The notes below the pieces were generated by a model that made no database searches, had not been told where the DNA came from, and was given only the letters and a program-made list of their open reading frames with translations. Source: Methanooceanicella nereidis (GTDB lineage Archaea; Halobacteriota; Methanocellia; Methanocellales; Methanocellaceae). Taken from it: 64,000 bases of DNA. The stretch is taken from the NCBI RefSeq assembly GCF_021023085.1, contig NZ_PGCK01000004.1:124001-188000 (forward strand). Reading direction: 5' to 3'. This document shows positions 5,572 through 10,701 of the stretch, one piece after another; within the stretch, counting starts at the first letter, position 1, and each line of letters starts with the position of its first letter. The position numbers and the translations under genes were made by a program.

Positions 5572-5612
5572 AAGGTACACTAGCTCTCACCACGAAGCGC
5601 ACGAAGGCGAAC
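5572..5612. repeat. Inverted copy of the 43-bp repeat
   Basis: The reverse complement of this segment contains the same core as the downstream array (TTCGCCTTCGTGCGCTTCGT, then CTAGTGTACCTTA). It can pair with any unit of the array to form a long stem. Confidence 0.75.
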
Positions 5613-5662
5613 AAGGAACACAAAGGACTTTTTTAGAAGACTATCATATACTTAAAAAAATT

Positions 5663-5950
5663 AGTGTACCTTATTCGCCTTCGTGCGCTTCGTGGTTAAC
5701 AGTTTAGTGTACCTTATTCGCCTTCGTGCGCTTCGTGGTTAACAGTCTAGTGTACCTTACTCGCCTTCGTGCGCTTCGTGGTTAACAGTCTAGTGTACCT
5801 TACTCACCTTCGTGCGCTTCGTGGTTAACAGTCTAGTGTACCTTACTCGCCTTCGTGCGCTTCGTGGTTAACAGTCTAGTGTACCTTACTCGCCTTCGTG
5901 CGCTTCGTGGTTAACAGTCTAGTGTATCTTCGAGCCCTTTGTGGTTGATC
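5663..5950. repeat. 43-bp tandem repeat array
   Basis: Six full units of exactly 43 bases begin at 5663, 5706, 5749, 5792, 5835 and 5878. A degenerate partial seventh begins at 5921. Each holds AGTGTACCTTA, CGCCTTCGTGCGCTTCGTGG and TTAACAGT. Units differ by only a few bases (for example TCACC for TCGCC in the 5792 unit), which points to recent amplification. There are no unique spacers, so it is not CRISPR. It lies between two convergent genes. Confidence 0.9.
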
Positions 5951-7490: not shown

Positions 7491-7649
7491 AACCCCGGTA
7501 AGTTGATCCTTTATTGTAATGGTCTATTGCGGATAAACTTTCTGTTGTCAGTTATACCACAACGTATATATCTGAGATATGACTTATTAAAGGTTCGCTG
7601 CGGGTAAGTATTATACATATTTTCTGCGGCGCGAGTGTTGTAATCATTT

Positions 7650-7726
7650 GGGCCCGTGGCTCAGTCAGGCAGAGCGGCGGACTCTTAATCCGCATGCCAT
7701 GGGTTCAAATCCCATCGGGCCCGCCA
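7650..7726 (+). tRNA. tRNA-Lys(CTT), copy 1
   Basis: Full cloverleaf. The acceptor GGGCCCG pairs with CGGGCCC. The anticodon stem GCGGA/TCCGC closes the loop CTCTTAA, giving anticodon CTT. The T arm carries GGTTCAAAT. Discriminator is G at 7723, and CCA is encoded at 7724-7726. There is no intron. It differs from the copy at 10497 by one base. Confidence 0.96.
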
Positions 7727-7799
7727 ATGATCACGAACACGATCTGTTTTTATGGGATTTAAATCAGGATATTGTGTTAGTACTTATGACCTTACGCAG

Positions 7800-7991
7800 T
7801 TCGACGCTCGGCCTATATAACAACATATAACTTTTTAATCCACGCCGTTCGACACTCGTTCTATATAACAACATATAACTTTTTAATCCACGCCGTTCGA
7901 CGCTCGTTCTATATAACAACATATAACTTTTTAATCCACGCCGTTCGACACTCGTTCTATATAACAACATATAACTTTTTAATCCACGCCG
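7800..7991. repeat. 48-bp tandem repeat array
   Basis: Four units of exactly 48 bases begin at 7800, 7848, 7896 and 7944. Each carries TTCGACRCTCG, then TATATAACAACATATAAC and TTTTTAATCCACGCCG. Because 48 is divisible by three, the minus strand reads as a 16-residue repeating peptide. That reading frame is a by-product rather than a gene. The next repeat boundary (7992) runs straight into the folded element that follows. Confidence 0.9.
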
Positions 7992-8021
7992 TTCGACGCT
8001 CGGCCTTCGGCCTCGCTACTC

Positions 8022-8201
8022 GGCTTTTAGGGTGCTTCGATGTCAGGGCCGGGCTTGCACCCCGCTCGCATTTCTGCTTCGCAGAATGCTCGCTCGCAAG
8101 CCCTAAGCGACGCGGACTAACGCCGCGTCCATTACCCTGCCATCTACGCATCCCTTCACTCGCTCGCTTCGTTCGCTCGCTCCGGGCAGACCCTAAAAGC
8201 C
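8022..8201. ncRNA. Folded GC-rich element (possible RNA or repeat element)
   Basis: A perfect 12-base inverted repeat, GGCTTTTAGGGT (8022-8033) and ACCCTAAAAGCC (8190-8201), encloses nested stems. CAGGG (8044-8048) pairs with CCCTG (8135-8139). GGGCTTGC (8051-8058) pairs with GCAAGCCC (8096-8103). Inside it is a nine-pair hairpin at 8068-8089. GACGCGG (8109-8115) pairs with CCGCGTC (8123-8129). The GC content is far above its AT-rich surroundings. It could be a noncoding RNA on either strand or a MITE-like repeat unit. The 64-codon frame through it on the minus strand is low-complexity and is not called. Confidence 0.45.
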
Positions 8202-8298
8202 TACGCCGAACGCGAAATGTAAATTTTGAAATTTATAGGATAATCGGATATGCATAGCTCAGTTTACGAGAAAAATATGGGTGATATCTACTTCTGGA

Positions 8299-9660
8299 TC
8301 ATTCTTGATTTTCTTTCCCTTTTAGCTCCTTAACTCTCTCCAATATCCTCTCGAGTATCTCATGGTCTGACAGTATGCCTTCCGGAGCAACCACGACCTT
8401 CCTGCAGCGTATCGGGACGTTGTCCATACGATATGCGGTGCCTTCTTCCTCGACACCTACTATTGTGGATGGCATAACGATCTTAGATACACCGGTTGTC
8501 GGCGTGTAATGAGGGTCGATACAGATAGTCGGGATCTGCGCGTAGTACTTCATGGAAGATACCGGGAAGTGAGCACCGGGATCCGAGGCAATGACTAATG
8601 CGGCATCGCATTCATGCCTTTCAAGAATATCGTTGGCGGCAGTCTCACCAGGATTATACCTTGGATATCCTCTGGAGAAGTCCATCGCGAACGGGAACCC
8701 GGACTGCCAGCTCATAACCTGGCCGGAGCCTGACACGTTGTAGTGGCCTCTCATGGGGATCAGGTTGAACTTGGTGTACTTGTTCATATCCGCGACAAAG
8801 CTGATAGCAATGTCTATGTTCCTGTGCTTACCAGTCGTCTGAGTAACACCCATACCGAAGAAAAGCAAACCGAACTTTTTAGATTTGCAGAGGTTTCCGA
8901 GCTCTTTTATTTTTTCTTTAGGTATTCCGGCCACAACATCGGGTATGTCCTCGCCTCTTATCACTGTCCTGAGCGCATCCAGTAATTCATAGTCTTTGCC
9001 CTGCTCGACCTGTACAAAGTACTCCGCCTGTTTTGCGGTGTCGGTAGGCCTTGGATCGACTACTACCACGGTCCTGTCCTTGAAGCCTCTCTCTGTGAAA
9101 AATCCTCTCGGATAAGTAGAGTACCTGCTCATGTGCCTCGGGTGAGCGTGGACCGGGTTGCAGCCCCAGTAAATAATGAGGTCAGCCCTGTTCTTGACCT
9201 CACCGAGAGTGCAGCACGGCGCTCCCACAGTCTGGATAGCGATGACTGAGGGCCCGTGACATACCGAAGCGGTGTTATCCGTCACTCCGCCGCAAAGCTC
9301 GGCAAGCTCGTTACCCACTTCCTGGGCCTCACACGAGGTGGAAGACCAGCCATAGAACAACGGCCTCTTCGCATTCGCAAGGATCTGCGCAGCCTTCTCG
9401 ATAGCGTAATCGTAGCTCACAGGGGTGAACTCTGCAGAGTTGTCTCCTCTTTCAAGAGGTGTCATTATCCTGTGGCCGTCCTGGGCAGACTTGAATTTCT
9501 CATTCCCTATGGCACATGCGTTAAGGGTATCTATTATTCTGTTACCGTCCTTGATTATTTTAATATCGTCGCAAAGAGTGCCGCAGAAGGGGCAAACGAC
9601 ATCCGTTACTACCTGTAGTTTCTTTGATTCTGCCTTTGTTTCAGTCTCAGTCTTCATCAT
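8299..9660 (-). CDS. fwdB: Formylmethanofuran dehydrogenase subunit B
   Basis: Catalytic subunit of the Mo/W enzyme that reduces CO2 to formylmethanofuran, the first step of methanogenesis (or its reverse). It belongs to the molybdopterin oxidoreductase family. The N-terminal cluster motif CPFCGTLCDD with CNACAIG-like spacing is near residue 20. The conserved active-site segment SVCHGPS, near 133, carries cysteine rather than selenocysteine. WGCNPVHAHPRH follows. Length (453 aa) is normal. The frame extends to a TTG at 9669 overlapping the fwdD stop, but ATG 9660 is preferred because GTGAG lies nine bases upstream. It is cotranscribed with fwdD. The other Fwd subunits are not in the window. 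Confidence 0.95.
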   Translation of the reverse strand: MMKTETETKAESKKLQVVTDVVCPFCGTLCDDIKIIKDGNRIIDTLNACAIGNEKFKSAQDGHRIMTPLERGDNSAEFTPVSYDYAIEKAAQILANAKRPLFYGWSSTSCEAQEVGNELAELCGGVTDNTASVCHGPSVIAIQTVGAPCCTLGEVKNRADLIIYWGCNPVHAHPRHMSRYSTYPRGFFTERGFKDRTVVVVDPRPTDTAKQAEYFVQVEQGKDYELLDALRTVIRGEDIPDVVAGIPKEKIKELGNLCKSKKFGLLFFGMGVTQTTGKHRNIDIAISFVADMNKYTKFNLIPMRGHYNVSGSGQVMSWQSGFPFAMDFSRGYPRYNPGETAANDILERHECDAALVIASDPGAHFPVSSMKYYAQIPTICIDPHYTPTTGVSKIVMPSTIVGVEEEGTAYRMDNVPIRCRKVVVAPEGILSDHEILERILERVKELKGKENQE

Positions 9661-10496: not shown

Positions 10497-10570
10497 GGGC
10501 CCGTGGCTCAGTCAGGCAGAGCGGCGGACTCTTAATCCGCATGTCATGGGTTCAAATCCCATCGGGCCCG
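10497..10570 (+). tRNA. tRNA-Lys(CTT), copy 2
   Basis: Same cloverleaf as the copy at 7650, with one difference (ATGTCAT for ATGCCAT in the variable/T-stem region). Acceptor GGGCCCG/CGGGCCC, anticodon CTT, discriminator G at 10570. Unlike copy 1, the CCA end is not encoded (CTT follows). Confidence 0.96.
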
Positions 10571-10701
10571 CTTCTTATTGAATCTTGTTTTATTGAGACC
10601 TGTTGATCAGGCTATTTTTAACCAGATACTGGTAATTCCGGGTAACTTTTGCAATTCTAAAATTATATGAATCCTTAGATAATAGCTTGTATAATTATAA
10701 T

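Follow-up and report, generated by a model that had tools for sequence, protein, structure and literature searches.

In the literature, REPs are described as palindromes of 20-40 bp with GTAG or CGTC tags, and REP clusters show tandem reiteration together with flanking DNA as well as inverted pairs (PMC3733652). The element analyzed in this study lies in a stretch of 64,000 nucleotides from Methanooceanicella nereidis (the window, which means the whole of the DNA analyzed). Like REP/BIME sequences with RAYT (Y1) transposases, it is dispersed, forms hairpins and has no visible coding capacity, and it shares with them the inverted pairs and the tandem reiteration with flanking DNA reported for REPs (PMC3733652). 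However, it is longer than 200 bp, compared with 20-40 bp for REPs, it is multi-branched with conserved junctions, and Y1_Tnp is unmatched in two of the three copy-rich genomes. MITEs are similar in being small, non-coding and present in many copies, and in having a short imperfect terminal inverted repeat (here the two ends pair as a bulged stem, P0), but neither a partner sharing its left end nor a target-site duplication was found for the present element (40 copies examined for the latter), and compensatory change affects several of its internal stems. ORF-less HEARO / IscB omega-RNA elements are structured, dispersed, and a few hundred nt long; the element is likewise structured, dispersed, and ORF-less, whereas it has no Rfam match. 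Group IIC introns insert behind terminators in a fixed orientation, and they resemble the element in insertion position and orientation, but no RVT_1 was found in the four genomes that carry it, nor does Rfam match it.

The element next to a tRNA-Lys gene

A tRNA-Lys (CTT) gene was called on the plus strand at 7650-7726, in agreement with the initial annotation of this region, and the element lies downstream of it on the same strand. A left-edge tandem array (7794-7985, plus strand) precedes the element and contains four 48-bp units (units 1 to 4, starting at 7794, 7842, 7890 and 7938), each of which consists of approximately 20 nt of left edge and a 28-nt A/T-rich spacer. Analysis of the window by TRF (7794-8002, 48-bp period, 4.4 copies, 95% match) bears out the annotated junction without a gap between the array and the GC-rich element. 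The units had been described as four exact copies; the number is right, but they are near-identical, with units 2 and 4 the same, unit 3 one base off, and unit 1 four bases off. It had also been noticed that the unit starts as the element does, and approximately 17 nt are indeed the same in both.

The ends of the structured element, which are common to its copies and were set from 15 copies in its own genome and 13 copies in two further genomes (G001 and G002), place it at 7986-8215, with the array on its left and no strand assigned. The element had first been outlined as 180 bases closed by a 12-base repeat; the perfect repeat stands, whereas the outer limit does not, as there is a further terminal stem. 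This stem, P0, has its 5' side at 7988-7995, inside the sequence repeated in the array, and its partner at 8207-8213. The fold is laid out as P0, a small hairpin (Pa), and P1 enclosing P2 and P5; P2 in turn encloses P3, which carries a variable hairpin (P3a), and P4. On the plus strand, the 5' arm of P1 (8022-8033) forms the perfect 12-nt inverted repeat with the 3' arm (8190-8201), and this stem covaries among copies. The 5' arms of P2 (8039-8048), P3 (8051-8058), and P4 (8109-8115) pair with 8135-8144, 8096-8103, and 8123-8129, respectively, and P3a occupies approximately 8068-8089 within P3. The right end, CGCCGAACGCGA, is at 8204-8215 (plus strand), and its 11-mer CGCCGAACGCG (8204-8214) has 14 exact occurrences in the genome, of which 11 coincide with copies of the element and none is in tandem. 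This region is more stably folded than its dinucleotide shuffles, with z values of -3.9 (plus strand) and -4.4 (minus strand) as RNA, and -2.6 and -3.8, respectively, as DNA.

Several other features of this neighborhood were recorded. A second tRNA-Lys (CTT) gene, near-identical to the first, is located at 10497-10571, and the two genes flank the element together with ORFs that, judged by eye, resemble formylmethanofuran dehydrogenase subunits. Another tandem array in the window (5662-5930; 43-bp units, 6.3 copies, 97% match) occupies the gap ahead of a convergent ORF, and the GC-rich portion of its unit (CGCCTTCGTGCGCTTCGTGG) is present inverted at 5590-5609.

A family of dispersed copies

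A BLASTN search of the own genome (G000; 3,193,629 bases in 41 contigs), which the initial annotation had proposed as a check, found dispersed copies at 16 places, 15 with the core and one (C1:222350-222419) with the right third only. A chance GC-rich palindrome, which the same annotation had offered for the case of a single copy without conservation, is ruled out by the copy number and the covariation: the element is multicopy and its stems covary. The copies form a genuine family of repeats that are dispersed, folded, and conserved. A covariance model built on the core matched 15 places in G000, 18 in G001, 8 in G002 (both of the same family as G000), and 1 in G003; element length was 213-243 nt in 14 copies. 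In a search of 294 genomes of the phylum, which were an even draw from a larger group and were scored with stricter filters, four genomes matched the core model and none of the other 290 did; a class-level search covered the same four genomes (G000-G003). The family consists of apparently non-coding dispersed elements of approximately 210-260 bp and, among the genomes searched, is confined to four Methanocella-family genomes.

A search of Rfam 15 (E up to 5, on 7600-8320) gave no match that was taken as covering the element, and a known RNA family was dropped as an explanation for that reason; around the copies, the matches were tRNA, SRP RNA, a ribosomal-protein leader, and sub-threshold ones. 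An origin from a virus or plasmid was also set aside: searches of plasmids and phages gave no match to the element, 23 viral contigs with a 17-base pattern of the element gave no covariance-model match, and an 18-base pattern was present in no viral contig. The family was not found described in the open-licence literature.

Covariation of the stems

For a core structure written by hand, 96.8% of the cells were paired in 21 sequences vs 86.9% after shuffling, and 10 of the 22 core pairs had changed on both sides, a number that none of 500 shuffles reached. Similar values were obtained for 42 matches (95.5% vs 84.7% paired; two-sided changes in 12 of 22 pairs, a number reached by 0 of 500 shuffles), although this alignment was fitted to the model and hence leans towards it. 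When the partner columns were slid by 1-3, pairing fell to 29-51%. The count of further pair types showed no excess over shuffles (167 and 222 of 500 were as high). The junction blocks CTAC, CTAAGC, and CATT are invariant in 28 copies. Since the stems covary and some junction sequences are invariant, it seems from the pattern of substitutions that a folded single strand, either RNA or ssDNA, is what has been conserved.

Such compensatory base changes, which preserve the secondary structure, are what is looked for in a structured RNA. The main rival to the reading that we prefer below is a multicopy functional noncoding RNA (trans-acting or acting from a 3' region) whose transcript is selected and whose copies are homogenised by gene conversion; we regard it as possible but rather unlikely. 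It would account for both the covariation and the invariant junctions, and the copies behind tRNA genes could then arise as read-through transcripts. Occupation of the tRNA-Met, tRNA-Asp, and tRNA-Gly-GCC sites in more than one genome also speaks for it. At the variable pairs of a 39-pair structure in 28 copies, 613 of 644 cells are Watson-Crick, 13 are G.T, and 3 are A.C; the excess of G.T over A.C weakly favors the plus strand as an RNA, but a single column pair supplies 8 of the 13 G.T cells, and 13 wobble cells in 644 are few for a structured RNA in general experience. The lack of an Rfam match, a copy number ranging from 1 to 18 inside one family, and the lack of shared neighbor proteins at most copies also count against this rival. 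The apex of P3a reads GCTTCGC in 15 of 15 own-genome copies, while its stem has several forms, and on the minus strand this apex reads GCGAAGC, an unusually stable DNA hairpin. This apex and the near-pure Watson-Crick pairing fit a folded ssDNA no worse than an RNA, without being decisive. The covariation is strong but common to RNA and folded ssDNA, and a noncoding RNA stays a possible candidate.

Tandem arrays of the left edge

At least two left-edge boxes were counted at 11 of the 15 G000 copies, at 6 of the 18 G001 copies, and at none of the 8 G002 copies, and 24 of the 41 copies have a single box; the count allowed up to 4 mismatches over 700 bp searched and excludes weaker or truncated boxes that were noticed by eye at L043, L049, and L100. 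Constant boxes alternating with spacers recall CRISPR arrays. In contrast to CRISPR spacers, however, those of the element are not unique but recur within most loci, each locus generally having its own spacer (L009 mixes spacers), and the arrays, of 2 to about 15 boxes, terminate in the folded element.

The suggestion in the initial annotation that the tandem copies had grown from the edge of the element holds as a pattern: each unit combines the left edge with a mostly locus-specific spacer, and larger left-anchored pieces exist in G003 (L057, approximately 1292-1376) and in G000:C19 (L105). Pieces anchored on the right are less common (C1 in G000 and, in L044 of G002, a second right end). 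Array breakpoints are located at, in, or just behind the left hairpins, which suggests slippage of DNA synthesis. As an account by purely local growth, the suggestion fails for four 48-bp loci (L009, L010, L020, and L022), whose spacers resemble one another. In addition, the upstream boxes are followed by TTCT at 6 of the 11 array loci in G000 (in part at one of these) and at 4 of the 6 in G001, and 16 of the 17 array loci have a unit length divisible by three (48, 45, 42, 39, 51, 60, or 66), the exception being 28 at L012. A binomial calculation for multiples of three gave 8e-5 (12 of 14 lengths, in a grouping chosen after seeing the data, and with two lengths read by eye, 39 at G000:C19 and 128 in G003). 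The likeness of spacers, their mixing at L009, TTCT, and the multiples of three are none of them explained by simple local slippage. The multiples of three prompted us to consider a coding repeat, which was rejected: no one of the six frames is open in all 16 units tested (the 28-bp array of L012 was left out), and the length of the left hairpin differs by single bases between copies.

Sites occupied by the copies

In two of the three copy-rich genomes, the copies lie mostly behind tRNA genes with the left end facing the gene. In G000, 11 of 15 copies follow a same-strand tRNA (10) or SRP RNA (1) gene at a distance of approximately 67 to 190 bp; another, L015, follows a tRNA-Leu-like sequence that neither program called as a tRNA. 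In G002, 5 of 8 copies are behind a same-strand tRNA and one more has a tRNA on the other strand. It had been proposed that the repeat family was seeded near tRNA genes, which is true of the own genome; the link is not general, since only 2 of 18 copies in G001 are behind a tRNA (L053 has a tRNA-Met to its right). The 12 nt to the left of the first box contain 49% T and 7% G, compared with 32% and 19% at -40 to -29 (41 copies), and this T-richness is lower in G001 (38% T).

Of 41 copies, 26 have an upstream gene oriented towards the element and 27 have a downstream gene oriented towards it, a crude count that took the longest neighboring ORF and left tRNA genes uncounted. These directions and the T-rich array spacers would suit a transcription-boundary element, in which hairpins and T-rich units would serve as terminator or insulator behind genes and the arrays would multiply the terminators. 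We consider this highly unlikely: 24 of the 41 copies have only one box, conserved multi-branched junctions are needless in a terminator, and the position may simply mirror the places where insertion is tolerated.

Other sequences recur around the copies. Between the tRNA and the array at several loci (L009 1197-1299, L018, L019, L020, L022, and L105) there is another hairpin repeat (TTGCAACTCCGAAGGAGTTGC..., AAAAGTTTTTGAAAGGC...), which has relatives in other genera (L052/L100 in G001 and L044 in G002). At L019 of G000, where the element lies behind tRNA-Met, a 3' tRNA-Met fragment comes after it (1733-1796), an arrangement such as integration or duplication would leave. A duplicated tRNA or long flanking repeats are not the rule, however, and among 33 copies tested were seen only in the window (the second tRNA-Lys) and at L019. 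L040, L043, and L044 of G002 have approximately 150-220 bp in common on the right side of the element; this flank continues in L040 and L043 as 24-bp tandem units with a similar box and a locus-specific spacer, and L044 has two 24-bp units. The right-hand fragment at C1:222350-222419 (L108, approximately 945-2861) abuts ORFs resembling those of a defence island, one of them TIR-like by eye.

Evidence bearing on movement

In a tree of the copies, whose bootstrap had not settled, those of G000 form one clade (100/100), those of G001 group with G003 (98/99), and two G002 copies branch away from the other six. The cores of L011 and L012 are identical, and those of the window, L009, and L010 are near-identical; the masked flanks within each of these sets are without similarity, except for short upstream stretches in L009 and L010. 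Neighbor proteins (1-1.5 kb, masked) are common between genomes at only four sites, namely tRNA-Met (three genomes), tRNA-Asp (G000/G002), L100/L044 (both beside tRNA-Gly-GCC), and a rearranged link between L018 and L041. Inheritance together with gene conversion could account for the tRNA-Met site being occupied in three genomes; the tRNA sites common to several genomes may be old, which counts against movement. G003 lacks the convergent G001 pair L045:3746-4232 at the colinear position, where 163 bp are present vs 740 bp; this absence was established at the level of genes, not of exact bases, for the one locus pair tested, and the third copy in the L045 query coincided with the point where one G003 contig ends and another begins.

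Convergent pairs recur in G001, with the elements approximately 26-53 bp apart as counted by eye (L045 3746-4232, L102 1039-1550, L103 1015-1550, and L097), and the linker looks alike in L097, L102, and L103.

No target-site duplication was detected, in that no length of 4-10 bp matched in two or more of 40 copies (L098 was left out); the best 3-nt setting matched 4 of 40 copies (0.005, uncorrected, among many settings). The lack of target-site duplication, the folded strand, the T-rich left side, and the convergent G001 pairs with a partly shared linker would all suit a REP/BIME-like element whose folded ssDNA is moved by a Y1 transposase of the IS200/IS605 type, as would the tandem clusters with flanking DNA, which resemble the REP clusters described in PMC3733652. 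Y1_Tnp matches were found once in G000 (C4:13522) and once in G003, but not in G001 and G002, which hold 18 and 8 copies, and the element is more than 200 bp long and multi-branched, against palindromes of 20-40 bp in REPs. Y1 mobilisation was set aside because Y1_Tnp is not consistent across the copy-bearing genomes, and we judge this explanation very unlikely.

A retroposon spreading by target-primed reverse transcription would explain the left-anchored pieces in G003 (L057) and G000:C19 (L105) as aborted products, and reading the minus strand would turn the array into an A-rich 3' tail. Nevertheless, RVT_1 (reverse transcriptase) has matches in none of the four genomes (G000-G003), compared with 3 of 14 control genomes, and target-site duplications are lacking, so that retroposition is disfavored and in our view barely credible. 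As for an autonomous relative, all left-end sites in G001 with 0-1 mismatch are at known copies, which argues that no relative with that end exists there; in the draft genome G000, left-end sites with the same mismatch limit fall at copies, at one fragment (C19), and at one position inside an apparent gene (C14).

Interpretation

The explanation that we rank as the likeliest, and hold to be somewhat probable, is a structured, mobile-like repeat that is non-autonomous and undergoes local duplication at its left edge. We infer that the family would spread as a non-autonomous element recognised in trans via its folded single strand. The arrays would be secondary, arising when DNA synthesis meets the left-edge hairpins and slips back, which would duplicate the edge plus its flank; they would then vary in length through slippage or recombination. 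A bolder version, unlikely in our estimate, is that the family represents a new kind of archaeal mobile element, in which a folded multi-branched single strand of approximately 200 nt would be the substrate, insertion would take place behind T-rich gene ends without target-site duplication, reverse transcriptase, or Y1 transposase, and the tandem arrays would be left-anchored partial copies.

At 17 loci in two genomes, the edge-plus-spacer arrays preserve a natural record of how a folded sequence perhaps seeds tandem repeats next to itself. Moreover, the whole multi-branched fold is kept across genera, which points to either a mobilising enzyme or a multicopy RNA that is not yet known.
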